The notes under the pieces were generated by a model that saw nothing but the letters and a program-made list of their open reading frames with translations, did not search any database and was not told the DNA's origin. From positions 1 to 20,011 of IMG/VR virus record IMGVR_UViG_3300014325_000056: 20,011 nucleotides of DNA, one strand, 5' to 3'. Both the position numbers and the translations under genes were made by a program. Numbering within the stretch: the first letter of the stretch is position 1; every line of letters begins with the position of its first letter. This document shows, in pieces, positions 479 to 18,402 of this stretch. This stretch comes from a virus.

Positions 479-2611
479 ATGCTAAATCTGATCAAACACC
501 TGACCGTCAACCAAGAGATGATTGAGGCTTCGAACCTCTGCGGGCGGTTCGACGCAGAGGACTGCACAGCGATCGCCTCCCTGGTGTATCGCGGCTATCA
601 GATCGATAAAGAGTCCCGCGCGCAGTGGGAAGTGCGGATGGAAGCCGCGATGAACCTCGCGATGCAGGTCGCAGTAGCGAAGAACTTCCCCTGGCCGGGC
701 TGCTCTAACGTAGTATTCCCGCTAGTCACCATCGCCGCTCTGCAATTCTCCGCCCGCTCCTACGCCGCCATCGTCCAGGGTAACAACGTCGTCCGCTATA
801 AAACTGTGAATGGGGAGGACAAACTCGCCGTCGACCGTGCTAAGCGCATTGGCAAGCACATGAGCTGGCAGGTCCTAGAAGAGGACGAGGCGTGGGAAGA
901 GCAGCATGACCGCCTGCTGATCAACCTCTCGATCGTCGGCTGTAACTTCGTCAAATCGTACTACGACGCCTCGAAGGTCCATTCCGTCGGTGTCCTAGTG
1001 ATGGCGAAGGATCTCATCATCGACTACCATGCGGAGAGCGTAGCGGCCGCTGCCAGGGTCACCCACCGATTCCCCCTCTACCGCAACCAGATGCGGGAGC
1101 GGATGCTGCGGGGTACTTTCGTGGACTGCACAGATGAGGCGTGGTTCAAAGGACCTCCCGCTTCGCAGCAAACGCAGTCGCAGATCGACGCGGATCGGCG
1201 GCTTGGCAAGTCCCCTCCCCTGGGCGATCATGACACCCCTTTCTACCTGCTCGAACAGCATTGCTGGCTAGACCTCGACGGCGACGGCTACGCCGAGCCC
1301 TATATCGTAACCGTGGAGGAGTCGAGCAAAACGCTCCTCCGCATCGTCGCCCGCTTCGAACGGATGGAGGACGTGGAGTTTACCGATGATAACAAAATCC
1401 TGTGCATCCGAGCCACCCAGTACTTCACCAAATACTCTTTCATACCTTCTCCAGACGGGGGCATTTACGACCTCGGATTCGGCGTATTTCTCGGACCGAT
1501 TAATGAGGCAGTCAATTCTGCTATCAACCAAATGCTTGACTTCGGAACCATGCAGAACTCTCTTGGAGGCCTCCTTGGCAGAGGCGCAAAGATCCGAGGA
1601 GGCGTGTATACTATGGCACCCTGGGAATTCAAGCGTGTTGATAGCTCTGGTGATGACCTACGAAAGAATGTTTTCATGTGGCCAGATCGGGCCCCGCCCG
1701 CGTTTCTCTTCCAATTGATTGAGCTGCTGATTGAATACAGCAACCGTATCGCGGGGACGGTGGACTCGACGGTGGGTGAGAATCCGGGGCAGAACACTCC
1801 CGCCTCCACCTTCCAAGGTATGACCGAGCAGGGAATGCAGGTCTACAAGATGATCTTCAAGCGGGTCTGGCGGTCGATGAAGGAGGAATTCAAGCAGCGC
1901 TTTGCGTTGAACCGCATCTACCTCCCCCGCTCGTTCAAGTTCGGCTCGGGAGAGGAGACGATCCGGAGGGAGGACTATATTGCAGCGGCGGCGGACCTTA
2001 TCGCCCCGGTCGCTAACCCGAATGTCAGCTCTGTTACCATGAAGCTGCAAACCGCCCTCGCCGTCAAGCAGTCCGCCATGGCCACGCCGGGCTACGATAT
2101 TGCGGAGGTAGAGAAGATCTGGCTTGAGAACATGGAGGTGGAGAATATCAGCGTAATTTACCCCGGACCGGGGAAGGTGCCACCTGAACACACCGCCCCG
2201 AACCCGAAAGCGGCGGTTGAGCAGATGAAACTCCAGGGCATCCAGATGAAGCTGGAAGCGGAGAAGATGAAGTGGGCGAATCATCTGATGGAAGAGCAGC
2301 GTCTCAACTCAGCGAAGATCCGGTTGCTGGAAGCACAGGCTATCCAAGCCGCCGCCGATGCGGACGCAACCAAGGCCGCTACCCACATCGAAGCATTTGA
2401 GCAGCTACTTAAGCTACATGAACAGTTAGGCGACCAGATGAACAAGCAGATTAGTACTCTGCTGGGAGAAGGTGATGGAAGCAAGGGTTCTGACGGAGGA
2501 GGAGTTTCTCAATCTGAAGGCAAGTCCGGGGATGAAGGCGATTCAGGCGTATCTGTCGAGGTGCCTGGAGGGTCTAAAGTCACAGTGGGCGATGGGGCTA
2601 CTCAGCGATGA
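479..2611 (+). CDS. Portal protein (P22-like podovirus type)
   Basis: The product is a 710-aa portal, the dodecameric ring through which DNA enters and leaves the head. Its N-terminal stretch, with ESRAQWEVRMEAAMNLAMQ followed by NFPWPGCSNVVFPLVTIAAL at about residues 45-90, is typical of a podovirus portal family, and the length is close to P22 portal (725 aa). A long charged helical region (about residues 580-665, rich in K, E, Q, A and M) looks like coiled coil and probably forms the barrel. The last 45 residues are Gly/Ser/Asp-rich and probably disordered; they overlap the next gene by 137 nt. The start ATG at 479 follows the terminase stop by 2 nt with a weak CAGG-like ribosome site. Position between terminase and scaffold supports the call. 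Confidence 0.93.
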   Translation: MLNLIKHLTVNQEMIEASNLCGRFDAEDCTAIASLVYRGYQIDKESRAQWEVRMEAAMNLAMQVAVAKNFPWPGCSNVVFPLVTIAALQFSARSYAAIVQGNNVVRYKTVNGEDKLAVDRAKRIGKHMSWQVLEEDEAWEEQHDRLLINLSIVGCNFVKSYYDASKVHSVGVLVMAKDLIIDYHAESVAAAARVTHRFPLYRNQMRERMLRGTFVDCTDEAWFKGPPASQQTQSQIDADRRLGKSPPLGDHDTPFYLLEQHCWLDLDGDGYAEPYIVTVEESSKTLLRIVARFERMEDVEFTDDNKILCIRATQYFTKYSFIPSPDGGIYDLGFGVFLGPINEAVNSAINQMLDFGTMQNSLGGLLGRGAKIRGGVYTMAPWEFKRVDSSGDDLRKNVFMWPDRAPPAFLFQLIELLIEYSNRIAGTVDSTVGENPGQNTPASTFQGMTEQGMQVYKMIFKRVWRSMKEEFKQRFALNRIYLPRSFKFGSGEETIRREDYIAAAADLIAPVANPNVSSVTMKLQTALAVKQSAMATPGYDIAEVEKIWLENMEVENISVIYPGPGKVPPEHTAPNPKAAVEQMKLQGIQMKLEAEKMKWANHLMEEQRLNSAKIRLLEAQAIQAAADADATKAATHIEAFEQLLKLHEQLGDQMNKQISTLLGEGDGSKGSDGGGVSQSEGKSGDEGDSGVSVEVPGGSKVTVGDGATQR

Positions 2612-2873
2612 AGATGCGTATAAGCAAAAGGCCGCCGTGGACTCGGCGCTTGCCCAGTACAAATGCATTCATGAGCTACTTTATTTAGACTACGAGCAAT
2701 ACAGCGAGGTAATGAACGATGACGACTATTACGAACGAATCCGGACTGGAGCCGAGTGGCCAGGCCATCTTGTGCGTTCCGTACATGCCGGAGTTAACCG
2801 AATCCTTGATGCAGATTCCCGACCACGTGATGGCGATGGAACTGATGAGGGAGATGAGAGGGACGGTGATTGA
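2475..2873 (+). CDS. Small overlapping phage protein, unknown function
   Basis: A 132-aa acidic protein with no family I recognise. It begins inside the 3' end of the portal gene, in another frame, and ends inside the GroES-like gene, in a third frame. I chose the ATG at 2475 over the GTG at 2472 because GGGAG at 2464-2468 is well spaced for it. The first 85 residues look like a folded helical protein (LTEEEFLNLKASPGMKAIQA, then a Trp-Gly segment and a Tyr-rich LLYLDYEQY segment). The last 40 residues, encoded over the next gene, are Asp/Gly/Arg-rich and look like an overprinted tail. Small helical proteins directly behind the portal are common in podoviruses, which fits. It could be over-extended at its 3' end only if a sequencing error exists. 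Confidence 0.68.
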   Translation: MEARVLTEEEFLNLKASPGMKAIQAYLSRCLEGLKSQWAMGLLSDEDAYKQKAAVDSALAQYKCIHELLYLDYEQYSEVMNDDDYYERIRTGAEWPGHLVRSVHAGVNRILDADSRPRDGDGTDEGDERDGD

Positions 2874-3129
2874 GTTGGGGGAGGATGCGTATAAGGGCGT
2901 CTCTGTCCGCTGCAAGCCCGGCGACAATGTGCTGATCAGCAAGTTCTGCGGGGCGATTGTGAAGGGACCACTGGATGGCAAATTCTACCGCATCATCAAC
3001 GCGGAGGATGTGTTTTGTCGCCTGAAGGGCGATATTAGCAAGATGATAGTGAAGAACCCTATTACCCAGTCTAAACAACAGGGTGGTGAAGGGCGGACGA
3101 AAGCAACGATCTTACAAGCGAGGAGCTAA
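2719..3129 (+). CDS. GroES-like co-chaperonin
   Basis: A 136-aa protein with the pattern of a GroES (chaperonin-10) beta-barrel. It has LEPSGQAILCVPYMPE at 10-25, where GroES has its first strand. A region around 25-40 could serve as the GroEL-binding mobile loop. Then come RGTVIELGEDAYKG (47-60), CKPGDNVLISKFCG (65-78) and YRIINAEDVFCRLKG (90-104), which match the order GxVxxxG, KxGDxVxF, xxEDI in chaperonin-10. Phage co-chaperonins such as T4 gp31 replace host GroES so that the host GroEL can fold the large coat protein; a similar role here is inference. The C-terminal 30 residues are basic and extend beyond a normal GroES. AGCGAGG at 2703-2709 gives a ribosome site. The first 155 nt overlap the preceding gene. 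Confidence 0.72.
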   Translation: MTTITNESGLEPSGQAILCVPYMPELTESLMQIPDHVMAMELMREMRGTVIELGEDAYKGVSVRCKPGDNVLISKFCGAIVKGPLDGKFYRIINAEDVFCRLKGDISKMIVKNPITQSKQQGGEGRTKATILQARS

Positions 3130-5235: not shown

Positions 5236-6159
5236 ATGGCAATCGGTGGCGTAATTACAACTGGCAATCACCCGAAGGCGCTCTGGCCTGGGGTGCATGC
5301 CTTCTGGGGTCAGATGTACGACGAGCACCCCACGGAATACACTGATCTCTTCGATCAGCTCGATTCCGACATGGCGTATGAGCAGGATGTCCAGGTAACT
5401 GGCTTCGGGCTCGCATCAGTGAAAGAGGAAGGAGGTGAGGTAACTTACGACTCTGAGGTTCAGGGTCCAGTCGCAACGTATCCGCACATTGCCTATTCGC
5501 TAGGCTATATCGTGACCTACGAAGAGATGATCAACAATCTCTACGAGAAGATCGCGATGAACCGGGCGAAGGCGAATGCGTTCAGCATTCAGCAGACGAT
5601 CGAGAACATCTGCGCAGCGGTGTACAACGATGCCTTCACCGGCAACGTGTTCACCGGAGCGGATGGACAGACACTCTGCAGCGCGAGCCATCCGAACACC
5701 ACTGGCGGCACATACTCGAACGTGCTGAGCCCGCCGGCGGACCTCATGGAGGCGAGCCTCGAGGACATCGTCATCCAGGCGATGGGGTTGCAGACGGATC
5801 GCAACCTGCTCATCAGCATCCTCCCCACCAGCCTGCACATTGCCCGTCAGGAGTGGTTCAATGCGAACCGCATTCTGAAGAGCGTACTGCAGCCCGGCAC
5901 TGCGAACAACGACATCAACGTGCTGAAGGCGACCAATGCGTTCCCGGGCGGAGTGAAGCTCAACCATTACTTCACCTCCCCGCACGCCTGGTTCGTTCGC
6001 ACGAACTGCCAGCATGGAATGCAGCAGTTCTGGCGGGTGCGCCCGATCTTCGATCAGGACAACGACTTCGGGACGAAGAACGCCCTGGCGTCGACCTACA
6101 TGTACTTCAGTGTGGGCAATACTGATCCTCGGGCGATTCTCGGCAGCAACGGACCGTAA
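5236..6159 (+). CDS. Major capsid (coat) protein
   Basis: The 307-aa product is the main shell protein. The N-terminus HPKALWPGVHAFWGQMYDE, then an acidic segment with DLFDQLDSDMAYEQDVQ and FGLASVKEEGGEV, then YEEMINNLYEK, follow a coat family common in podoviruses and Mu-like phages. Further markers are the CSASHPNTTGGTYSN loop near 148-162, ILKSVLQPGTANNDINVL near 213-230, HYFTSPHAWFVRTN, and the final DNDFGTKNALAST with GNTDPRAILGS. The fold is expected to be HK97-like. A very strong ribosome site (AAGGAGA at 5222-5228, 7 nt before ATG) fits high expression. A 36-nt gap follows, with no clear hairpin. The call rests on family pattern and position. Confidence 0.93.
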   Translation: MAIGGVITTGNHPKALWPGVHAFWGQMYDEHPTEYTDLFDQLDSDMAYEQDVQVTGFGLASVKEEGGEVTYDSEVQGPVATYPHIAYSLGYIVTYEEMINNLYEKIAMNRAKANAFSIQQTIENICAAVYNDAFTGNVFTGADGQTLCSASHPNTTGGTYSNVLSPPADLMEASLEDIVIQAMGLQTDRNLLISILPTSLHIARQEWFNANRILKSVLQPGTANNDINVLKATNAFPGGVKLNHYFTSPHAWFVRTNCQHGMQQFWRVRPIFDQDNDFGTKNALASTYMYFSVGNTDPRAILGSNGP

Positions 6160-7417: not shown

Positions 7418-8181
7418 CAATCGCAGTTCCGTCAACATGCTACCAGATCATCTGTGATGCGATGGGAGATGCGGGGAAGCTCGCTCAGGGCAGGGAGCCG
7501 ACGGGCGAGCAGCTCGCAGAGAACATGAGGCGGCTGAATAAGTACGTCAATTACCTGCAAACGCAGGGGGCGATTCTCTGGGTACAGCAGGACTACGCGA
7601 TCTCAGCTCCGGTGCTGCAGGCAGGGAAGGCACTGTATAAGCTAGGCCCGTCAGGGGATGTGCAGATAGTGAATAAGCCCCGGCGGGTGATTGAGGGGTA
7701 CTATGTGGATGCGAATAATTCGCAGCGGCCCCTCAACCTGCTGAGCCGGAACGAATGGAACACCCTGTCGAACAGGGATCAGACTGGCACGGTAGGGACA
7801 TTCGCCCCTGCAGCGCAGCCCGGCACTATTACCTCTTTCTATCCGGACAAGCAGCTAAACAGCATCGATGTGCATTTGTGGCTGACCCCGGACGCCTTGA
7901 TGGCCACCGGGGCGGTGCACCTGGTCGTCGATCTGCAGATCCCCAATTTCTCCATGCTCACCGACAGCATGGCCTTCCCACCGGAGTGGCAGCTGACCCT
8001 AGAGTGGGGGCTGGCGGATCAAATCTGCACCGGTATGCCGCAAGAGATAGTTGATCGATGTGGTACAAAGTCACTCTTCTACGAATCCGCGCTCCTGGCG
8101 TGGGATCAGGAGGACGGATCGACGACCTTCCAGCCCGACCCCCGATCCAGCTACCCCGGCAAGCGAGTGGGACGGTACTGA
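7414..8181 (+). CDS. P22 gp4-like tail accessory / head-to-tail adaptor protein
   Basis: A 255-aa protein. The early part (CYQIICDAMGDAGKLAQGRE, then a helical LAENMRRLNKYVNYLQTQGA) is followed by LYKLGPSGDVQIVNKPRRV, LLSRNEWNTLSNRDQTGT, FYPDKQLNSIDVHLWLTPDA and FPPEWQLTLEWGLADQ. This order is characteristic of the head-to-tail adaptor family that includes the P22 tail accessory factor gp4, which binds below the portal and closes the filled head. The protein is longer than P22 gp4 (166 aa), so it is a family relative and not a close copy. Gene order portal, scaffold, coat, gp4-like, gp10-like matches P22. The start overlaps the previous stop as ATGA. I see no lytic motif, although P22 gp4 was reported to have muralytic activity. 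Confidence 0.78.
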   Translation: MTIAVPSTCYQIICDAMGDAGKLAQGREPTGEQLAENMRRLNKYVNYLQTQGAILWVQQDYAISAPVLQAGKALYKLGPSGDVQIVNKPRRVIEGYYVDANNSQRPLNLLSRNEWNTLSNRDQTGTVGTFAPAAQPGTITSFYPDKQLNSIDVHLWLTPDALMATGAVHLVVDLQIPNFSMLTDSMAFPPEWQLTLEWGLADQICTGMPQEIVDRCGTKSLFYESALLAWDQEDGSTTFQPDPRSSYPGKRVGRY

Positions 8182-8182
8182 G

Positions 8183-9676
8183 ATGCCGCAACGAACGGAA
8201 CTGCCAGATCGATTCCCTCTCTACTCTCCGCTAGAGGTGAGGGACGGGGAAGTCCCGCTTACAAAGGACTCCCGGTTGTACAACGGGTATGTGGAGCTGG
8301 ATCCGAAGGATAAGCAATTCTGGATCTACAAGCGCCCAGGGATGCAACGGAACGTGTTTTTTCAGAGCATCAGTGGAGGTGCAGGGTGCGGGATCTACCA
8401 GTCCCCGAGGATCGCAGGGGTAGGGAGCCTGATCACCGTCACGGGGAGCGCTCTACGGGTGGGCGGGACCATCGTAGGAACAGTCGAACCGCAGGCCGGA
8501 AACCTGCCATATACTTTCGAAACTATCACCAGTAATCCGTTGACGGTCATCTTAGTCGGCCCGTTCAATCAATACTTGCTAGATCCTGCTGGGCAGATAT
8601 TGACAGAGATCACAAGCAATATCCCCGCTGTGCCGTTCGCCTTCAATCTCCCCAATCTCGTCCCAGGCGTAGCGTACCTCGATGGCACCACTTACGTGAT
8701 GGATGTCAGTGGGAATATCTGGGGCTCGAATCTGAACGATGGAACGACGTGGAATCCACTGAATGTGATTGCCGCCAACTCCACCTCCGACCAAGGCGTT
8801 GCGATCGCCAAGCAGCTCAGCTACATCATCGCCTTCAAGCAGTCCACTACTCAGGTCTTCTTCAACAACAGCAACCCTGCTCCTGGCAGTCCGCTTTCCC
8901 CTGTACCGGATTCGCAGATCCCCCTCGGGTGCTTCGCGCCGTACAGTGTAAAGTCGATTGACAACTCGCTGTTCTGGGTAAGTTCGAATGAGACGGTTAG
9001 TCCGCAGGTAGTGCAGATGGACAACCTGATCCCCCGTGTTGTCTCTACCCCGGCGGTGGAGAAGATACTGGATGGGGTGGAGGTGAGTACTGAGTTCGGT
9101 GGTGGGGGGCTGATTGGCTGGGTGCTGAAGCACGCCGGGCATCGATTCTACGGGATGAATATACAGAACCTGAACCTCTGCCTCGTCTACGATATTGATC
9201 AGCAGCAGTGGTACATCTGGACCGACCCGGTAGGGAATGCGTATCCGGTAGTGGGGACAAGCTATCAGGGCTCGTTTGGCCAGGGCATCGCCGCCCCCCA
9301 TATTGCCCAGCTCTCCAGCGGCCTGATCATGGACATCGATGTGGCAAAGGTATTCCCCAACGACAACGGGGTGCTGTTCCCGGTCGATATCTACACCCCG
9401 AACTTCGATGGGGAGATTGATAAGATCAAGATGCTCAACCTGCTACGCTTCCACGCGGATCAGACGCCCGGCAGCATCCTGAACGTTCGCTACAATGACA
9501 ACGACTATGCCCCTGGCGAGTGGTCGAACTTCCGGAATGTGGATCTGAGCCAGAAGCGCCCGTACATCGACAACGAAGGGTCCTTCTACCGTCGTGCTTA
9601 CCATCTCCGCCATCTCTGCAACACCGCCTTCCGGATTAAATCTGGCAGCTTGCTGCTAGGAGTAGGAACACTATGA
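8183..9676 (+). CDS. P22 gp10-like packaged DNA stabilisation / tail hub protein
   Basis: A 497-aa beta-rich protein. I take the ATG at 8183, 1 nt after the preceding stop, and not the upstream open frame to 8051, because that part would overlap the gp4-like gene by 131 nt and reads like a shadow. Markers include LYNGYVELDPKDKQFWIYKRP, PFAFNLPNLVPGVAYLDGT, QLSYIIAFKQSTTQVFFNNS, NSLFWVSSNE and YDIDQQQWYIWTDP. They suggest a repeated-blade (propeller-like) architecture, as in the tail hub gp10 of P22 (472 aa), which caps the connector and carries the tailspikes. The length, neighbours and content agree. The end overlaps the following ATG by 4 nt. Confidence 0.8.
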   Translation: MPQRTELPDRFPLYSPLEVRDGEVPLTKDSRLYNGYVELDPKDKQFWIYKRPGMQRNVFFQSISGGAGCGIYQSPRIAGVGSLITVTGSALRVGGTIVGTVEPQAGNLPYTFETITSNPLTVILVGPFNQYLLDPAGQILTEITSNIPAVPFAFNLPNLVPGVAYLDGTTYVMDVSGNIWGSNLNDGTTWNPLNVIAANSTSDQGVAIAKQLSYIIAFKQSTTQVFFNNSNPAPGSPLSPVPDSQIPLGCFAPYSVKSIDNSLFWVSSNETVSPQVVQMDNLIPRVVSTPAVEKILDGVEVSTEFGGGGLIGWVLKHAGHRFYGMNIQNLNLCLVYDIDQQQWYIWTDPVGNAYPVVGTSYQGSFGQGIAAPHIAQLSSGLIMDIDVAKVFPNDNGVLFPVDIYTPNFDGEIDKIKMLNLLRFHADQTPGSILNVRYNDNDYAPGEWSNFRNVDLSQKRPYIDNEGSFYRRAYHLRHLCNTAFRIKSGSLLLGVGTL

Positions 9677-9876
9677 CTGTCCTGAATACGCCGCCGCCCA
9701 GGGGGGCATCAGTGATCGAACGCAAAGAGGGAGAGCCTCTGCGATCCTTCACTCAGCCCTGGAGCGGGTGGTTTCGCAACCTCTACAATGTGCTGCATCC
9801 GGGAGTGACAGAGGATGTGGTGGTTGGAGGGGTGACTCTTCACTTCGTCAACGGAGTGTATACAGGTCATGAATGA
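9673..9876 (+). CDS. Small tail-associated protein, unknown function
   Basis: A 67-aa protein that starts with an ATGA overlap on the tail hub gene. A polar, Pro-rich start is followed by FTQPWSGWFRNLYNVLHPG near residues 26-44 and GGVTLHFVNGVYTG near 52-65. The W-x-x-WF helix and the final F-V-N-G-x-x-x-G hairpin are familiar from short proteins and domains near podovirus tail genes. A small adaptor bound to the virion is plausible but unproven. In P22 this position holds the tail needle gp26, which is 233 aa and coiled coil; nothing in this protein resembles it. Confidence 0.7.
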   Translation: MTVLNTPPPRGASVIERKEGEPLRSFTQPWSGWFRNLYNVLHPGVTEDVVVGGVTLHFVNGVYTGHE

Positions 9877-10351
9877 GCTAGCCATTATAGAGTCGGCGCC
9901 GAAGGAACTCAGCTGGCCTGATAAGATCGCTTGGTTAGCTGCGAAGATTGCGCCGCTGGAGGGATCGAAGGTGGAGGATGACGACTTTGAGATACGGCAC
10001 TCGTTTAAGGGAGTGTGGTATATCAGGGAGTTCGATCTGCCCGCCGATTACATCTTCATTGGCCGCACGCATCTGCTGGGGCATATAGTGAAGCTGATTC
10101 GGGGCACTACTTGGGTAGAGACTCCGACTGGTAGGGTGAGATACTGCGCTCCGGCGATGACCCATACACAGCCGGGACATCAGATGGTCGTTCAGACTAT
10201 CACGCCGATCACCGCACAGAGCTGGCACCTCAACCCCGACGGCTGCAGGGATATTGCGGAACTTGAATCAGAGTACTTCGCACCGCCGTCGGTTATACTG
10301 CAGCGCGGTGCTCAACTTATACAGGAGACTGCAAAATGGTTGGAGCAGTAA
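9869..10351 (+). CDS. Cupin-like beta-barrel protein
   Basis: A 160-aa protein with the outline of a single-domain cupin: VWYIREFDLPADYIFIGRTH (49-68), then a helix-free barrel with GHIVKLIRGTTWVETPTGRV (71-90), APAMTHTQPGHQMVVQT (94-110) and SWHLNPDGCRDIAELESEYF (118-137). Candidate metal ligands are H68, H72, H104 and H120; the classical HxH...E motif is not intact, so it may have lost metal or use another set. I recall similar stand-alone cupin-like proteins of unknown role in podovirus and siphovirus structural clusters. The gene overlaps both neighbours (8 nt and 16 nt), so it is embedded in the tail/ejection operon. Whether it is a virion part is unknown. Confidence 0.68.
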   Translation: MNELAIIESAPKELSWPDKIAWLAAKIAPLEGSKVEDDDFEIRHSFKGVWYIREFDLPADYIFIGRTHLLGHIVKLIRGTTWVETPTGRVRYCAPAMTHTQPGHQMVVQTITPITAQSWHLNPDGCRDIAELESEYFAPPSVILQRGAQLIQETAKWLEQ

Positions 10352-10950
10352 CGGCAACAACCGTAGCCGCAGCCGCAGCCGTAGCTAGCGTAGGCGTTGG
10401 CGCGTATTCTGCTTATCAGAGTTCCAAGGCCAATAGCCAGGCGAACCGGCTGGCAAATTCGCAGCTGGGGATGGAGCAGGAGCTGTTCGGCGCGCAGGGG
10501 CAGTATAGGGATCAGCTGAGCCAGCTCATGGCCGACCCCTCGTCGGTGACGAAACTGCCTAGCTATCAGTTCTTTAAGGACCAGGGAGCGGAGTCGGTGG
10601 CTCGGAACTTCGCAGCAAATCCCGGCGGCGCGCAGGGAGTGGCGTTGGAGCAATATGGACAGAACTACGCATCGAGTGCGTATGAGCAGCAGGCGCAGCT
10701 CTTGGCTGGCCTGAGCGGGCTGACACAGAACCCCGCCGGCTATGGGTCGGTTGCGAGTGGAGCGAATTCGAATGCGATCTCTGGGCAGGGGCAGAGCTTC
10801 GAACAGATCCAGCAGCTGCTTGCGCAGGGTGGTAGCGCGCTGAAGATGTTCGGCCCGCAAGGCAGCTACTCGAGTGCCGGGACGCCAGGCGCTGGCACAC
10901 CGTATGGCGGGATTTATCCTGGTTACACAGTAACCTCACCGGGAGGCTGA
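10336..10950 (+). CDS. Probable DNA ejection / internal virion protein 1 (gp7-like by position)
   Basis: A 204-aa protein, close in length to P22 gp7 (229 aa), first of three consecutive internal proteins. The N-terminus has a hydrophobic Ala/Val run (residues 3-25) that could insert in membrane. It is followed by a helical stretch and LSQLMADPSSVTKLPSYQFF at about 57-76, a Pro-Tyr pattern seen in many phage ejection proteins, then a Gln/Ala/Ser/Gly-rich remainder. The last 40 residues are Gly/Pro/Tyr-rich and disordered. AGGAGA at 10323-10328 lies inside the preceding gene and precedes the ATG at 10336 by 7 nt. The role, passing through the tail to form a conduit for DNA, is inferred from order and composition. 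Confidence 0.72.
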   Translation: MVGAVTATTVAAAAAVASVGVGAYSAYQSSKANSQANRLANSQLGMEQELFGAQGQYRDQLSQLMADPSSVTKLPSYQFFKDQGAESVARNFAANPGGAQGVALEQYGQNYASSAYEQQAQLLAGLSGLTQNPAGYGSVASGANSNAISGQGQSFEQIQQLLAQGGSALKMFGPQGSYSSAGTPGAGTPYGGIYPGYTVTSPGG

Positions 10951-10951
10951 A

Positions 10952-12430
10952 ATGGCTGACGGAGTAGGCGGATTCATGGGCGGATACATGGCGGCGGGCC
11001 AGTACCAATCGCAGCAACAAGCTTCCGGTGATCAGCATCAGGAGGCGATGCAGCAACTAGCGAAAGGGAAGCTGGAGATTGCGCAGACCCAGCAGTTGCT
11101 GGACGCGCAGGCAGCGGCCATGATGGAGCTGAAAGGTAGGTCGCACTCTGGCGCGGGAGGTGCGCCAGGTACGCAGGGAGGGGTAGGAGGGATTGCAGGG
11201 CAGTCGTACAACGCCGCCGACCTCGCCTTCGCCGCTGGTGAAACCTACATGAAGCACGGGCTGATTCAGCAGGGCTCCGAGTTCATGGAGAAGGGTGCGA
11301 AGCTGGCGGAGAGTGGGTCGGCGCTGGAGATTCATCAGGCCGCGCAGCAGGCAAAGATGTGGGGGCATGTTGGCAGCGTGCTGGATACGATCCATGAAAA
11401 CTCTCCGACTGCGGCAGCGGACTGGGATAAGGCGCGGATGACCTTCCCGCTGATGTTCCCAGACGAGGCGAAGCACCCCGAGGTGCAGAAGTTCCTCAGC
11501 CAGCCGTATGATCCACAGACGGTGGATTTGCTGAAGCGAGCAAGCATGACAGCGCAGCAACAGGCGGAGCTGCAGAAGACTAAGGCGGAGGCGAAGAAAG
11601 ATGAAGCGATGGCAAAGTTCGAAGCCGCGGGTGTCCCTCTGCGTCAAGCCGAAGCGAAAGAGCACTCTGCGCGCGCTGCTGCAATTGGTAAAGCGGGCGG
11701 TAAGCCGCCACCAGCAGCGGAAGTAAATAATGCGAAGTCGCTCATTCAGGCTGACTACCCAGATGCCGATCCGAAAGGGTATCAGCTCTATGCGACGGAG
11801 GTAGCAGAGCGCGCAAAGGGGCTAATGGCCTCCGGCCAGACCCGAGATGAGGCGTTTCAGCAAGCGTACAGTGAGCTGAACGATAGCGGAAAGCTGAAGA
11901 ATCTCCCAGCCAAAGCAAGCGTGCAGAAAGAGAATGCAGCCGGTAAGGCACAGGCAGAGGCGCGACAAGGCTCCGTTCAGGACATCGATGCTATCATTGC
12001 TTTGCTGGATCAGGGAGAGGCTACTGTAGGTATCGGTCGAAAGTTTAAGAACGTAGGTGAATGGCTGGCCAGCGTTGGTTCTGGCGACGACGATGTGGAG
12101 AGTCCGCAGGCATCCTTTGATGGCAAGCTGGGGGTGCTGATTAGTAGACTACCCGCAGCTCTGGCTAAGAAGGGTAAGCTGGCTGCCGATGAGCGGCAGA
12201 TTGTGAGAGATATTTCCGATCTCCGGAAGCCGTTCACCACCCCCAGCACTGCAAAGGCCACACTGATGGCGGTTCGGGAGAGGTTGATGGGGGAAGACGG
12301 GTCTGTCATCAAGGGTAAGGGAGATAAGACCACCGCCCCGGTTACGATATCTTCTGATGCCGAGTTCAACAAACTACCCTCCGGGGCAATGTTCATTGGC
12401 CCTGACGGTAAAACCCGGAGGAAGCCGTAA
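10952..12430 (+). CDS. Probable DNA ejection / internal virion protein 2 (gp20-like by position)
   Basis: A 492-aa, Ala/Gln/Lys-rich, mainly helical protein; P22 gp20 is 471 aa. The start is Gly/Ala/Met-rich (GVGGFMGGYMAAGQY). A Gly-rich linker around 65-80 precedes a helical domain with a Trp-containing MWGHVGSVLDTIHEN segment, and a long coiled coil lies near 195-235. A second helical domain (about 325-455) carries DGKLGVLISRLPAALAKKG. The last 30 residues have the pattern SDAEFNKLPSGAMFIGPDGK, a short module found at the ends of phage internal proteins. GGGAGG at 10940-10945 is a strong ribosome site. The stop and next start share one base (TAATG). No enzymatic motif is visible. The role is inferred from gene order, length and composition. 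Confidence 0.72.
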   Translation: MADGVGGFMGGYMAAGQYQSQQQASGDQHQEAMQQLAKGKLEIAQTQQLLDAQAAAMMELKGRSHSGAGGAPGTQGGVGGIAGQSYNAADLAFAAGETYMKHGLIQQGSEFMEKGAKLAESGSALEIHQAAQQAKMWGHVGSVLDTIHENSPTAAADWDKARMTFPLMFPDEAKHPEVQKFLSQPYDPQTVDLLKRASMTAQQQAELQKTKAEAKKDEAMAKFEAAGVPLRQAEAKEHSARAAAIGKAGGKPPPAAEVNNAKSLIQADYPDADPKGYQLYATEVAERAKGLMASGQTRDEAFQQAYSELNDSGKLKNLPAKASVQKENAAGKAQAEARQGSVQDIDAIIALLDQGEATVGIGRKFKNVGEWLASVGSGDDDVESPQASFDGKLGVLISRLPAALAKKGKLAADERQIVRDISDLRKPFTTPSTAKATLMAVRERLMGEDGSVIKGKGDKTTAPVTISSDAEFNKLPSGAMFIGPDGKTRRKP

Positions 12431-14124
12431 TGGGATGGCAAGATGCCCCTGTAATTGGTGGTGATGGTGGAGTACTGTCCCCGGACGGTACGGTTAGTGT
12501 AAAGCTGGGTGGTGGAGGGCCGCCGGCTGCTAAGGGGTCTGCCTGGCAGAGCGCACCGATTGTTAACCCTACTTCAGTAGGAACTCAAACCACTCTCGGG
12601 GCTATTGCGAAGGGGGTGAAGAATCAAGGTAAGGCTGATATGCTTACCGGTGACGACGGAAGCGCAGAATCTCCACCTCAAAAGCTTGGTCGACTGCCCT
12701 TTACCCACCAAGCTATGCTCTCCATGATGGATAATAAGGAAGAGCGAAAGGCTTTTCTTGAGCATACCTACGGTAGAGGATCAGTGACTGAAGACTCACA
12801 CGGACTGATAGTGAAAGGAAAGGATGGAAAGCCCCTTCGTGCATCTAGCAGCTTCTTCGCCAGGATGGCAGGTGACGCACCGGAAACTACGCTCGGTATA
12901 GTAGGGGCGCTGGAAGGAGCTGCGGGTGGGTCAGTAGTAGGCCCGGCCGGAACCTTCGTCGGGGCTGTTGGAGGAGCGATAGCAGGCGCCGCTAGCGGAA
13001 AAACATTGAAGGAGGGGGCGAAGGCGGTTACAGGGAACTATAGGAAGACGCCGGGGCAGTATGCACGAGTAATCGCAGGCGCGGCAGAGGCTGGCGCCGA
13101 AGGCGAAGTTGGAGGGCGCGCGATTGGGCCTGTGCTAAGCCGCTTCACCCGTGGACCTATTCCGAGCAAATTCAGTGGGGCGACTCCTGAGATCCGCAAG
13201 ATGACGGAGGATATGCTTAATAAGGGAGCCCGACCACCGCCAACCTCCAGCATGCCTGATGCTATTGCAATCCAGCGAGCTCACATCATTGCTGATAAGC
13301 TGACTGGCAAAATGGGCAGTATGAACAAGGCGAATAAGGGTTACCTGCATGCCGCCGCGGATAAGTTGCTGGACAAAGCTGGCGTTAAGCGCTCTACGAC
13401 TCGTAAGAGTATAGTTGAGCAGATGCAGGGAGACCATCCTGCGATTGAAACACAGGCTACGGGACAGGCGATTCAGCAAGCTGCGCTGACAAAACTACAT
13501 TCCATCACCGGGTCGAAGCAGGTGGGTGGGCGGAAGATCGAGGCTTATCTCAAGTCTCTCTCCGCCAACAGCCGTTCGCCAGAGGATGCGTATAACTGGC
13601 TCGTGCATGGGGGGCAGACGGACCGGCTGGATCAGTTCATCAGGATTATGGGAAAGAACTCTCCGGTAGTTGAGCAGATTCAGCAACAAGCTCTTCGCCA
13701 CGCTTTTGCGGGAGCAATGGAGGAAGTTAGTAAGACTTCAGGGATGACGGGGCTTACTAAGTGGATGAATCAGTTTACGGAGAAGCAACAAAAGCTGCTG
13801 TTTCCTGGTGGCCTAGATCAAGACCTTCGGACTCTGGATAAGGAAATCAAGTTCCTCTTCCCCGAGATCCACGACCCGAACATCGCTGGTATGGCAACGG
13901 GTAGTATGATGCAGAAGAGGTTCTATATTCGCTGGTTTCATCAAGGTGTAGCCGCACTGTATAGAGGATTTCTGGTACACCCAGCGGTAATGCGGAGGTT
14001 AGCGGTTGGGTTTAAGGGAGATTCGGCGCAGAGGAAAGCTGCGAGGGCGGGACTCAAGGAGCTGTTCTACTTCGGCGCGCTGGAAGCGAGCGAGCCTGAT
14101 CTGGATAAGGACCAGAAGAAATGA
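12430..14124 (+). CDS. Probable DNA ejection / internal virion protein 3 (gp16-like by position), with glycine zipper
   Basis: A 564-aa protein; P22 gp16 is 609 aa. The start has a WQDAPV motif (residues 3-8) and a second WQSAPI (39-44), in a Gly-rich low-complexity region. Residues about 155-195 form a long Gly/Ala hydrophobic segment (GALEGAAGGSVVGPAGTFVG and on) with small residues at regular spacing, i.e. a glycine zipper able to pack in membranes. The C-terminal 350 residues are helical and basic. No lysozyme or transglycosylase catalytic pattern is evident. A protein that crosses or lines the inner membrane during DNA injection is the best guess. The gene ends in an ATGA overlap with the ATP-grasp gene. 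Confidence 0.72.
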   Translation: MGWQDAPVIGGDGGVLSPDGTVSVKLGGGGPPAAKGSAWQSAPIVNPTSVGTQTTLGAIAKGVKNQGKADMLTGDDGSAESPPQKLGRLPFTHQAMLSMMDNKEERKAFLEHTYGRGSVTEDSHGLIVKGKDGKPLRASSSFFARMAGDAPETTLGIVGALEGAAGGSVVGPAGTFVGAVGGAIAGAASGKTLKEGAKAVTGNYRKTPGQYARVIAGAAEAGAEGEVGGRAIGPVLSRFTRGPIPSKFSGATPEIRKMTEDMLNKGARPPPTSSMPDAIAIQRAHIIADKLTGKMGSMNKANKGYLHAAADKLLDKAGVKRSTTRKSIVEQMQGDHPAIETQATGQAIQQAALTKLHSITGSKQVGGRKIEAYLKSLSANSRSPEDAYNWLVHGGQTDRLDQFIRIMGKNSPVVEQIQQQALRHAFAGAMEEVSKTSGMTGLTKWMNQFTEKQQKLLFPGGLDQDLRTLDKEIKFLFPEIHDPNIAGMATGSMMQKRFYIRWFHQGVAALYRGFLVHPAVMRRLAVGFKGDSAQRKAARAGLKELFYFGALEASEPDLDKDQKK

Positions 14125-15419
14125 AGGTTCTGATCATCGACACGGTCGGGTCAGCGGGGCTGGACCTAGCAATGAGGGCGCAGGACCATGGGCATGCGGT
14201 ACGTTACTACAACCTCCCGAAAGAGTGGGACACTGGTGAAGGACTGGTCGATAGGGTTGAGGAGTGGGAGCCGCTCATGGATTGGGCGGATCTTGTGGTC
14301 CCAACAGGGAATAATCTCTACGAAGCAGCGCTGGCTCCCTATTTCGGTAAGGGGTACCCTATCTTCGGCGCAAACGCCAAGGGTGCGGAACTTGAGCTGG
14401 ATCGAGAGCTGGGACAGCGAGTACTCGAAGAGCATGGAGTACAGGTGGTTCCGTATCACACTGTTAAGGATATCGACGAGGCGCTGGGGATTGTGTGTGA
14501 AACTAGAAAAGCTTACGCGATCAAGCCCTGGGGCGGCACTACCGACAAGGCGCTGACCTGCGTTGCCCGGGACGCAGACGAAGCGGTCTTCATGCTCAAG
14601 CGGTGGCAGGCGGACGGCCTCGATGGGCAGCTGATGCTGCAGGAGAAGATCAATGGCGTGGAAATGGGCATTGCTGGCTGGTTTGGTCCAGGAGGCTGGA
14701 GTGCAGCTCTCGAAGAGAGTTTTGAGCACAAGAAATTCCTGGTCGGGGATCTGGGCTGCAATACAGGTGAAATGGGGACGGTGATTCGTCATGTCAAGCG
14801 ATCACGACTCTTTGCCGAAGTTCTCGAACCGGTTACCGATTACCTCCACGCAATCAACTACGTCGGCGACTGCTCCGTCAACTGTATCATTAATGACGAC
14901 GGAGCGTGGCCCCTCGAGTTCACTTGCAGGCTCGGATGGCCTGACTTCCTCATCCGTCAAGCGGTCATCGAAAGTGATCCTGTGGAATGGATGGCTGATC
15001 TGCTGCGTGGCACAGACTCTCTCGAAGTCTCGACGGACATCGCGGTAGGCGTGCTGCTGGTGCACGGCAACTTTCCTGGCGAGGGGGAGGATAAGTACTG
15101 GTCCGGCTACCCCATCAGCGGGATGTCGAGGGAGATCCAGCATCAGCTCCACTACCAGCAGATGAAGTTCGGGACCATCCCCACCCTGATCAACGGGGAG
15201 GTGAAAGATGTCCCAGCAGATGTTACTGCTGGTAACTATATTATGGTCGTTAGCGGCACTGGTCGGACTGTGCGAAGCGCTCAGAAGGACGCATACGGAG
15301 CTATCCGGCAGCTGGCTATTCCTAGTAATCTTGGTTACCGCACTGATATCGGTGATCGACTGGCTGATGATTTGAAGGAGCTACAGGCGGGCGGATATGC
15401 GAGGGGGATGGAGTTCTAA
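14121..15419 (+). CDS. PurD-like ATP-grasp ligase, substrate uncertain
   Basis: A 432-aa protein, the same length as bacterial PurD (glycinamide ribonucleotide synthetase, about 429 aa) and alignable over its whole length. It starts with MKVLIIDTVG. PIFGANAKGAELELDRELGQ near residues 79-100 corresponds to the PurD FGP...AAQLEGSK segment. Then come K135-P-W-G-G (lysine of the ATP-grasp), LQEKINGVEMG near 173-183, EHKKFLVGDLGCNTGEMG (202-219, PurD: DHKR..D.GPNTGGMG) and LEFTCRLGWPD (265-275, PurD: EFNCRFGDPE). The C-terminal domain, with GVLLVHGNFPGE and VSGTGRTVRSAQKDAYGAI, is also present. But the PurD GGREHA loop is replaced by VGSAGLD, and the metal-site Asn by T268. So the fold is clear; the reaction is not. 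It is translationally locked between ejection and tailspike genes. Confidence 0.87.
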   Translation: MKVLIIDTVGSAGLDLAMRAQDHGHAVRYYNLPKEWDTGEGLVDRVEEWEPLMDWADLVVPTGNNLYEAALAPYFGKGYPIFGANAKGAELELDRELGQRVLEEHGVQVVPYHTVKDIDEALGIVCETRKAYAIKPWGGTTDKALTCVARDADEAVFMLKRWQADGLDGQLMLQEKINGVEMGIAGWFGPGGWSAALEESFEHKKFLVGDLGCNTGEMGTVIRHVKRSRLFAEVLEPVTDYLHAINYVGDCSVNCIINDDGAWPLEFTCRLGWPDFLIRQAVIESDPVEWMADLLRGTDSLEVSTDIAVGVLLVHGNFPGEGEDKYWSGYPISGMSREIQHQLHYQQMKFGTIPTLINGEVKDVPADVTAGNYIMVVSGTGRTVRSAQKDAYGAIRQLAIPSNLGYRTDIGDRLADDLKELQAGGYARGMEF

Positions 15420-15748
15420 TGGGCACTACACCGCAGAAGGGCAGAGCGGACTTCCTGTCACCGGGGGACCACAACGCGAGCTGTTCAATGTGCGGGCGGA
15501 AGCGGAAGGCCTCGCAGATGGAGCGGAACTGGATGGGGCAGTACCGCTGCCCAGAGCACAACGAGCCCCGCCAGCCACAGGACTTCGCCCGGGATATCAA
15601 GGACGACCAGAGCGTCCCGTGGGCGCAGCTGCCCCAAGTCACATTCACCTCCTTCTGCACCCTCAACTCACAAGCCGCGCTGCCAGATGTCGGTATCGCT
15701 GATTGCATGCGGGCTGATAATACCTTCTACGATCCTTACGGAGTATAA
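15419..15748 (+). CDS. Small zinc-ribbon-type phage protein, unknown function
   Basis: A 109-aa protein with a C22-x2-C25 pair and a C44-x2-H47 pair, i.e. a CxxC...CxxH site well suited to bind one zinc ion, framed by ADFLSPGDHNASC and PRQPQDFARDIKDDQ. This layout (GD-x-N-x-x-C-x-x-C, then W-x-G, then C-x-x-H, then PRxPQDF) recurs in unnamed proteins of many tailed phages. The second half contains aromatic and Cys residues but no known domain. The start codon shares one base with the ATP-grasp stop (TAATG), and its own stop shares one base with the tailspike start, so the three genes are translationally coupled. Possible roles are a small virion component or an assembly factor; neither is shown. 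Confidence 0.78.
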   Translation: MGTTPQKGRADFLSPGDHNASCSMCGRKRKASQMERNWMGQYRCPEHNEPRQPQDFARDIKDDQSVPWAQLPQVTFTSFCTLNSQAALPDVGIADCMRADNTFYDPYGV

Positions 15749-18402
15749 TGATGGGTACTTACATTCCGCTTCTCCCGCCACAGAACTTCGTCCCTACCAA
15801 GACAGTGGTGACAGCTGCGTGGCTGAACCTTGTTGACGGGATCGTACAAGGGAATGTTCCGGCAACAGGCCCTTACGGTGCATCGATTGTTTCGGGGCAG
15901 GTGCAGGTTACCGGGCCGAACGGCTTTCTGACTTCGTACGGAGATCTCACCTTTGCACTGCAGGGACCAAATCCCAGTGGTATTCCGGCCCCGACGTTGT
16001 ATCTGGGCGGTGCGGGGAAGCTAAATGCTTGTCTGACGACGGATGCGCAGACGCCTGGGTTGGCGGGGATCCGGCTGATTGTAGCGAGCGGAGAGTCGGA
16101 TGACCCTACACAGCCGAGCGGGGATTTGCTTCTGATTGGCGGTGGAGGAGCAGATAAGGTAGGACAGGTTACCCTGCAGGGTTGCACCAGCCTCGCAGGG
16201 CCGTTCGGCGTGACGACGGCGATCTGGGGCGGAAATGCGACGGTAGGGCAGGCGGGGAATTTGTATCTGGGAGGCGGGCAGGTCGGCCCGATTGGGGGCG
16301 GGTCGGTTCACCTGATCATGACCGACACGGCGGGAGGGAATAACGTTGGCTCGATTGTATTCAGGGTGAATTCGACAGTCCTCTGGACAATTACATCATC
16401 GGGGGCGATCTTCTTCGGCTCGACGGGAGCGGGTCTGCCCGGCTATGTTCTGTTCTCTAACGGACCCAATGCACTGCCGAACTGGGCAGCTCTCCCCAAC
16501 GGCCTCGTTCCCTTCCCGCTCACCGCACTGGAGGTCGCTAACGGCGCGCAGGTGCTGCACTACAATTATCTGCCAGGTAATGTCTTCAGGTACTATACCG
16601 ATGCGCAGATTGCCCAAACGCAAGCGTTTACTTCCACACCTACGCTGGACTGCTCGGCGGCTATCAACATGGCGGTGCTGTGCTCTACGGGCGATGTAGT
16701 GTTTCCGACGGGCGTACACTATATCAATGCTCCTATCTACGTTCCGCAGACGAGTCAGCCGAATATCCGTTTTGTGGGGGAGAGCAGGACTAATACTAAG
16801 ATCGAGCCCATGGCGAACAGTATCGCGGATCTCCTCGCTATCAACGCGATGGTGATTAATCAGGCGACGAATAAGAAGCTGTCGTTCTATCGCATTCGCC
16901 TGACAACAGGGGACAACCCGGCGCTTACCGCCTGGTCAGGTTTCAGCATCCATGCGGATCAGCTGAGGAGCTACAACCCGGCGACGAACTATGTTGCTGG
17001 GGCGCTGGTGAGCTCTGGCGGCCTGTCGTATGTCTGCATTGTAGCTAATGCGGGGAAGATACCCGCCTCCAACCCCGCATTTTGGACCCTGTCTGGAACG
17101 AATGCTGCAGGGTACAGTGCTGCAAATTCGGACTATATCTTCAGCGGGTCAATTGAAGATTGCTGGTTCGATGCGGGCGGTGTGCAACCAGCGTTTGTCG
17201 GCGGGCTGAATAACTATCTCGTACAGGGAAATACCTTCGAGTTTCAGAAGGGGTGCTTTAGCGTTACAGGAGGGACGGCGGATGCGTATTTCAAGGCGAA
17301 TTCTCTATCCAACTGTTACGATTACTTCATTCAGGATACGATGAGCCCGGCTGCGAATATCATCACGATAGAGGGTCTGCATGTATACACCCACAACCGG
17401 GGGCTGCTGTTCCTGTTCATCAACGCCTGGGCGATTCGGATTAAGAATGTGTTTTTGCAGGCAGCTGTGCCGAATCTAGGAGGGGTCGGAATAGGGTCGT
17501 TTGTGGTCTGTAGACAGCTGGAGTTGGAGAATCTCAGTACGCTGACGAACGCGACGTTGGGAACCGGGGCGACAGGTACGCAGCTTACCTTCCAAGCCTG
17601 CTCCGCGGAGGTATCGGACTGTAACTTTGATGGAGTGGATCTGGGAGTGGTGGTGACGGGAGGCGGGACGAATCAGATCACCTTCAACCACGTGGATATA
17701 GTTAACACGAACCTCGCCAGCTTCGCGGTGCAGACGACTACCGGCACGCCAGCAGGCTTCGTGGATTGCACGGACTGTAACTGGTCGGATGGGCAGAACA
17801 ACGTGCTAGTGTTTACCAACCAGGCAGACTTTGACATGACGTTGAAGAGCTGCAGGTTTATGAATGCGGGGCTGGGAGCGAATCCCGCCGCCCGCAACCT
17901 TTCATTTGCGACCACTGGGCTGGTACGGTTGACGGACTGTCAGATTGGGCAGAACAACGCGGCAGCAGCTGCGCAGTACTATATAGATTGCGCCGGGCCG
18001 TCGAATGGGCAGGTAGTACTGGTAGACCCCGTCTTCTTCGGCACCGCTCCTCTCAGCGTCCAGAACCCGGCGGCGTCGCAACAGGCCTCCATCGGCCGCC
18101 AAGTCGTCCCGTTTGCTGGCGGCTTCCCGACGTTCTCCGCAGCAATTAGTGATAAGTTTGAAATCTCTTGCAGCGGAAATGTGACGGTGGGGGCGCCTAC
18201 CGGTGCGATGGACGGGAAGGAGATCTCGGTAATAATCAAGAACACCACCTCCGGTGCAATTGCAGTTGGCTGGGCAGGGATCTTCAAGGTGCCGGGGGGG
18301 TTGACTACCCCCGCTGGGGGGAGTAGCCGCGCATATCAGTTCTACTTCGATGGAACAAACTGGAGATTCCAGTATCAATCTAGTGCTGATGTCCCAAACT
18401 AG
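15748..18402 (+). CDS. Tailspike/tail fibre with right-handed beta-helix and inserted CBM5/12-like module
   Basis: An 884-aa adsorption protein. The N-terminus (residues about 10-35, with TKTVVTAAWLNLVDGIVQGN) fits a virion-anchoring segment. A Gly-rich repetitive region follows to about 240. GDVVFPTGVHYINAPIYV at 315-332 and the following IRFVGES mark the start of a pectin-lyase-like right-handed beta-helix. Residues 408-450 (NYVAGALVSSGGLSYVC and FWTLSG) match the pattern of a small chitin-binding type 3 (CBM5/12-like) module inside the helix. Helix rungs continue to about 800. A compact C-terminal domain, ending YFDGTNWRFQYQ, may trimerise. Such spikes bind or cut surface polysaccharide; the catalytic residues cannot be assigned. 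ATG codons at 15748 and 15751 are both possible; GGAG at 15740-15743 slightly favours 15751. Confidence 0.88.
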   Translation: MMGTYIPLLPPQNFVPTKTVVTAAWLNLVDGIVQGNVPATGPYGASIVSGQVQVTGPNGFLTSYGDLTFALQGPNPSGIPAPTLYLGGAGKLNACLTTDAQTPGLAGIRLIVASGESDDPTQPSGDLLLIGGGGADKVGQVTLQGCTSLAGPFGVTTAIWGGNATVGQAGNLYLGGGQVGPIGGGSVHLIMTDTAGGNNVGSIVFRVNSTVLWTITSSGAIFFGSTGAGLPGYVLFSNGPNALPNWAALPNGLVPFPLTALEVANGAQVLHYNYLPGNVFRYYTDAQIAQTQAFTSTPTLDCSAAINMAVLCSTGDVVFPTGVHYINAPIYVPQTSQPNIRFVGESRTNTKIEPMANSIADLLAINAMVINQATNKKLSFYRIRLTTGDNPALTAWSGFSIHADQLRSYNPATNYVAGALVSSGGLSYVCIVANAGKIPASNPAFWTLSGTNAAGYSAANSDYIFSGSIEDCWFDAGGVQPAFVGGLNNYLVQGNTFEFQKGCFSVTGGTADAYFKANSLSNCYDYFIQDTMSPAANIITIEGLHVYTHNRGLLFLFINAWAIRIKNVFLQAAVPNLGGVGIGSFVVCRQLELENLSTLTNATLGTGATGTQLTFQACSAEVSDCNFDGVDLGVVVTGGGTNQITFNHVDIVNTNLASFAVQTTTGTPAGFVDCTDCNWSDGQNNVLVFTNQADFDMTLKSCRFMNAGLGANPAARNLSFATTGLVRLTDCQIGQNNAAAAAQYYIDCAGPSNGQVVLVDPVFFGTAPLSVQNPAASQQASIGRQVVPFAGGFPTFSAAISDKFEISCSGNVTVGAPTGAMDGKEISVIIKNTTSGAIAVGWAGIFKVPGGLTTPAGGSSRAYQFYFDGTNWRFQYQSSADVPN

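Follow-up and report, generated by a model that had tools for sequence, protein, structure and literature searches.

PurD (GAR synthetase; TIGR00877; structures 2yw2, 2qk4 and 1gso), the functional sites of which are listed in PMC8880213, is the closest described relative of the phage protein considered here, and environmental surveys have counted viral 'purD' among the auxiliary metabolic genes for purines (PMC11097641, PMC11360552). PurD-like proteins of another kind were encountered by Brown et al. 2011 (PMC3261824), who set aside Hlac_1553 and rrnAC0307, 'extra' PurD-like proteins of two haloarchaea that lacked GARS_N, the Mg site and the aspartate of GDPE; this review of archaeal purine synthesis was the only work found in the literature when 'PurD-like' and ATP-grasp were sought together. 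Phages are also described as encoding ATP-grasp enzymes in the R2K family, predicted to modify proteins (PMC4431377), and in ORF28 of LUZ24-like phages, an ATP-grasp/amidoligase gene located in an early module (PMC3890496). Both resemble the present gene in being phage-encoded ATP-grasp genes but, as far as they have been described, belong to different families.

The window analysed was a whole viral contig of 20 kb (20,011 nt) from an uncultured tailed phage, in which the gene for a PurD-like protein of 432 aa lies among virion genes. The features that bear on its interpretation are as follows.

479..2611, + strand, portal protein (phrog_1216, SU10_portal)
5236..6159, + strand, major capsid protein (Phage_capsid_4; 59-84% identical in related phages)
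8051..9676, + strand, head-closure Hc3 / DNA stabilisation protein (phrog_578, E=5e-30)
10336..10950, + strand, small protein, probably internal to the virion (46 relatives have its cluster at position -3)
10952..12430, + strand, protein probably internal to the virion (28 relatives have its cluster at position -2)
12430..14124, + strand, large late protein of 564 aa, probably an internal or ejection protein (judged by its position and size; weak phrog_36512 match)
14121..15419, + strand, PurD-like ATP-grasp ligase, 432 aa (Pfam, TIGR00877, PDB, AlphaFold, residue table, tree)
15419..15748, + strand, zinc-ribbon-like protein with CxxC...CxxH and an 'EPRQPQDFxR' motif (relatives have it both alongside the ligase and without it)
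15748..18402, + strand, probable tailspike/fibre (weak CBM_5_12 and beta-helix matches)

The ligase reading frame runs from an ATG at 14121 to a TAA at 15419 and contains no internal stop codon. It shares 4 nt (ATGA) with the ORF upstream and 1 nt (TAATG) with the one downstream, exactly as the initial annotation had described, and the intact ATP-grasp ORF claimed there was likewise borne out by the full reading frame and a match to GARS_A. Comparison with a 96%-identical protein from another contig gave, by the NG86 method, a dN of 0.035 and a dS of 0.84, and the resulting dN/dS of about 0.04 indicates that this is a real gene under selection.

In a Pfam search, GARS_A was matched at E=5e-12, passing its cut-off, and GARS_C at E=2e-7, under its gathering score, while GARS_N gave no match. 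The TIGR00877 purD model scored 92.2 bits across residues 77-414 against a curated equivalog cut-off of 288 bits, about one third of the score required of a true PurD. Sequence searches of the PDB nevertheless returned PurD (best E=1e-17). Structure prediction and a PDB search, which had been suggested as a check, were carried out with an AlphaFold model built from 56 relatives; the model was confident (pLDDT 94.1, pTM 0.92), and its structural matches 1-15 were all PurD (TM about 0.7-0.76), followed by PurK, PylC and biotin carboxylase. The N, ATP-grasp and C domains of PurD were all present in the model, which aligned with 2yw2 over 459 columns at TM 0.76. An alignment to PurD over the whole length had been claimed, and this held for the fold, although not for the sequence, where residues 1 to 45-75 found no counterpart in PurD. 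PylC, PurK and PurT, the next structural matches, were more distant (TM about 0.56-0.62, 14-16% identity); these are ATP-grasp enzymes that act via acyl-phosphates. The BFVD viral structure library held no full-length match to the model (best TMq 0.48). A search of a defence-system library gave no match. By its predicted fold the protein is assigned to the ATP-grasp superfamily, as had been proposed for it as a ligase-type member, despite the absence of the Mg-ligand Asn; K135, E181 and E266 (window numbering), corresponding to the ATP-grasp Lys and Glu ligands, are invariant in the family.

Given these matches, the protein could be taken for a true GAR synthetase with which the phage boosts purine supply late in infection. 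The fold, the domain order, the best PDB matches and the GARS_A score all speak for that reading. The active-site residues, however, do not. They were compared in an alignment of 156 members (72 phage, 4 from a group of divergent phages related to L004, 15 genomic prophage/MAG and 65 cellular) alongside 10 PurDs drawn from bacterial contigs, using the sites and residue numbering of PMC8880213, to which the reference row of the alignment is one higher. Residues E100, K143, E192 and K214 (ATP/Mg) and R287 (carboxylate-binding) were invariant in 156/156 members. Five positions invariant in PurD carried fixed replacements in every one of the 156 members (K103R, E185Q, D212E, G227E and N285T), so that the Asn of ExN, the second Mg ligand, is Thr throughout the family. 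D290 was replaced by W, Y or V in nearly all members, E292, which binds glycine in PurD, was variable, and the N-domain motifs GGREHA and PGNxG were not conserved in the family columns. In the window's protein the PurD signature EFNxRFGDPE reads EFTCRLGWPD (D290W), with R287 kept, D212 changed to E and E292 lost.

The family has instead its own invariant positions. R95, Q174, E202, E217, T220 and T268 (window numbering) were present in the window's protein and in 100% of phage, prophage and cellular rows, and a residue fingerprint of ExxR, E[HFN]K, TGE[MQ]xT and ExTxR separated the family from PurD. The tree split the members from PurD at 100 and recovered a cellular clade at 99 and a phage/prophage clade at 85. 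On these residues the 432-aa protein is placed in a PurD-like but non-PurD family, which shares with PurD the three-domain fold, the ATP-grasp core, the C-domain and the five retained ATP, Mg and carboxylate residues.

The distribution of the family among genomes also argues against GAR synthetase activity. A separate true purD over the cut-off was found in 14/18 genomes with a member, scoring 387-582 bits, as against 65-124 bits for full-length members. In two further genomes, one Woesearchaeota and one Falkowbacteria (G013 and G016; small drafts, possibly incomplete), a member was present and no PurD, PurM or PurF passed its cut-off. One genome, that of the Rhodanobacteraceae bacterium ZG21-1 (G007), with a prophage copy (locus L160), matches to PurF, PurM and PurH and no PurD over the cut-off, would speak for a true GAR synthetase; true purD was present in 25/25 of its family relatives, and the missing gene is likely to reflect an assembly gap, since a gene adjoining purD in a relative was also absent from this assembly. 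With the gene lying outside any early or metabolic block, and with haloarchaeal proteins of like description already rejected as PurD (PMC3261824), a true GAR synthetase appears very improbable, and a plain supply of purines by this gene is strongly disfavoured. The doubt that the initial annotation had cast on ordinary purine synthesis was thus well placed, in view of the scores, the changed residues and the coexistence with true purD.

It was also conceivable that the family had lost catalysis and retained a binding or structural role. The loss of the Mg-ligand Asn and the replacement of a nucleotide-binding Lys by Arg would fit a dead enzyme, and N285T, which removes the classical Mg-binding Asn of ATP-grasp proteins, together with K103R and E185Q in the ATP site, could mean altered or absent activity. 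However, the replacements were uniform rather than random, which suggests changed specificity in place of decay; the ATP, Mg and carboxylate residues were held even in distant clades, and the low dN/dS points the same way. A catalytically dead protein is accordingly given little weight, though more than a GAR synthetase. Since the residues for ATP, Mg and the carboxylate are retained, the family probably comprises active carboxylate-amine ligases with substrates other than those of PurD.

Family-specific motifs were used to collect relatives, of which viral contigs yielded at least 559 and genome contigs at least 527. A set of 50,697 phage records contained a single clear relative, 40% identical, in the metagenome-assembled genome MW202796; ten other matches from the phage database that were examined carried bacterial PurD motifs. 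Members in prophage-bearing records came mostly from Pseudomonadota, chiefly Paraburkholderia. The cellular clade, by contrast, consisted of solitary chromosomal genes in haloarchaea, DPANN, CPR and many bacteria (L163-L227; for example L182, L189, L207, L195, L219, L169 and L178), and phage virion or lysis genes lay near 0/65 of its loci, as against 11/15 of the closest genome-contig members (L148-L162). The haloarchaeal members of this sister clade match the description of Hlac_1553 and rrnAC0307 and may well be the same proteins; those are chromosomal genes, whereas the window's gene belongs to the clade of phage late operons. N64, in the N-domain, was present in 98% of phage members and not in cellular members, and such differences between the clades suggest that the acceptor may differ between them.

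A late position within the virion block had been claimed for the gene, and a survey of gene neighbourhoods, proposed at the same time, placed nearly all viral homologues there and not in an early or metabolic block. In 66 of the 71 non-redundant viral loci in which an upstream gene could be called, the gene directly upstream of the ligase was an ORF of 350 aa or more, and in 46 of the 71 the two genes overlapped by 4 nt. Internal proteins and Hc3 preceded the ligase in viral relatives, zinc-ribbon or fibre-like proteins followed it, and genes for lysozyme-like and small membrane proteins lay further downstream in many loci. Judged from this gene order, the ligase would be expressed late. The neighbour called the last ejection protein was harder to place: its position and size fit, and its positional equivalent in a Paraburkholderia prophage (L148) matches a 'DNA ejection protein' family, but the window's own protein gave a weak phrog_36512 match and none in the phage collection, so that the label is a weak one. 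In one relative, the late protein upstream is separated from the ligase gene by an inserted ORF of 61 aa (L240:14825-15010). The Hc3 ORF of the window overlaps its preceding gene by 131 nt and probably begins further downstream than listed.

Whether the ligase is a constant part of this virion type was examined in loci anchored on Hc3 (narrow alignment) rather than on the ligase itself, the broad Hc3 and internal-protein alignments being too divergent for reciprocal scans. The ligase was present in 11/17 such loci with at least 9 kb downstream, and a core virion-assembly enzyme, always present, could be dismissed on this count. Three loci that lack the ligase, L244, L273 and L275, have the large upstream ORF joined directly to the zinc-ribbon gene. 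As relatives lack the ligase and their flanking genes are joined, it is a removable accessory late cassette at a fixed place and not core assembly machinery. Across the loci, which were not de-replicated, the zinc-ribbon gene occurred without the ligase in 7 and the ligase without the zinc-ribbon gene in 75. A pair resembling LysX/LysW, in which a ligase acts with a small zinc-ribbon carrier protein, was rejected, since either gene can be found without the other. The C-terminal Q/E/K of the upstream protein was considered as a modification tag and also rejected, as the ATGA overlap by itself requires the final codon to end with A.

The setting of the gene had led the initial annotation to propose a part in particle assembly or maturation, for example with an amino acid or peptide ligated to a virion or host component, or else a late supply of purines. 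Ligation to a virion protein, such as the spike or the ejection protein upstream, would account for the fixed place between internal-virion and spike genes and for the coupling to an internal-virion gene despite very different upstream proteins, and a second modifying enzyme, a GNAT, is found in the same block in 22 loci. On the other hand, the upstream proteins of relatives were mostly hardly alike (10-43% identity to that of the window), no neighbour was constantly associated with the ligase, the ligase and the zinc-ribbon gene were separable, relatives manage without the ligase, and the same active-site fingerprint recurs in solitary cellular genes with no phage genes around. A required part in assembly was therefore not upheld, a virion-assembly role is somewhat disfavoured, and maturation of a virion protein is considered unlikely, with a virion protein as the acceptor at about one in five. 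At the site of the GNAT acetyltransferase (phrog_1249; L089:4676-5128), 24 other loci carry a 160-aa protein of the type seen in the window (9869-10351), and the two were never found together.

The ligase is no less likely to act on a target common to ordinary cells than on one in the virion. It might modify a component of the host surface or a metabolite late in infection, for example in superinfection exclusion or the timing of lysis, with the late operon serving as a mere insertion point for accessory genes. The cassette-like presence and absence of the gene, its sister clade in unrelated bacteria and archaea, the lysis genes downstream in many loci and the similar roles proposed for other phage amidoligases (PMC10580990) are in keeping with such a role, as is the gene for a GNAT/FemAB-like acyltransferase that adjoins the cellular copy in L169, L177, L178 and L179. 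No envelope gene was directly linked to the ligase, however, and haloarchaea and DPANN, among which members occur, are not known to have bacterial peptidoglycan, so that it cannot be the common target. Stated in this specific form, late modification of the host is a serious possibility that falls somewhat short of even odds.

The reading preferred here, to which a probability of about 0.75 is assigned, is that the gene encodes a PurD-like, non-PurD ATP-grasp carboxylate-amine ligase carried as a late accessory cassette, with a host component or small molecule a likelier target than a virion protein or an obligate assembly step. The cassette lies after the last of the internal-virion genes, to which it is translationally coupled, and before those for the tail/spike. 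Judging from the fold and the retained residues, a carboxylic acid would probably be activated with ATP to an acyl-phosphate and then joined to an amine. Because the N-domain motifs are gone and the glycine-holding residues lost or replaced, phosphoribosylamine would not be the acceptor and glycine would probably not be the donor; since solitary cellular genes share the active-site fingerprint, a metabolite common to cells is the most likely donor. The late task would more likely be modification of a host component or small molecule, and less likely that of a virion protein. A broader proposal can be offered only tentatively, namely that a large phage ligase family coupled to virion ejection proteins links a carboxylate, late in infection, to an amine of the virion or envelope, that the cellular sister clade performs a related amide-forming reaction, and that both are easily mislabelled as purine synthesis.

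To name the gene at 14121-15419 a purine gene would be wrong, and counts of viral purD may include this family, which scores on the purD model and lacks the diagnostic residues. Were the substrate identified, a function could be assigned to a family that occurs in hundreds of phage contigs as well as in bacteria and archaea, some of them with no purine pathway found. In the complete relative, MW202796, the ligase homologue ends the rightward late block, and RNR and replication genes lie on the other strand; the deposited record annotates no further purine gene and leaves the homologue itself (L228:42140-43456) unannotated. A GroES-like (Cpn10) protein is encoded near the portal gene of the window (2719-3129) and is also present in MW202796.
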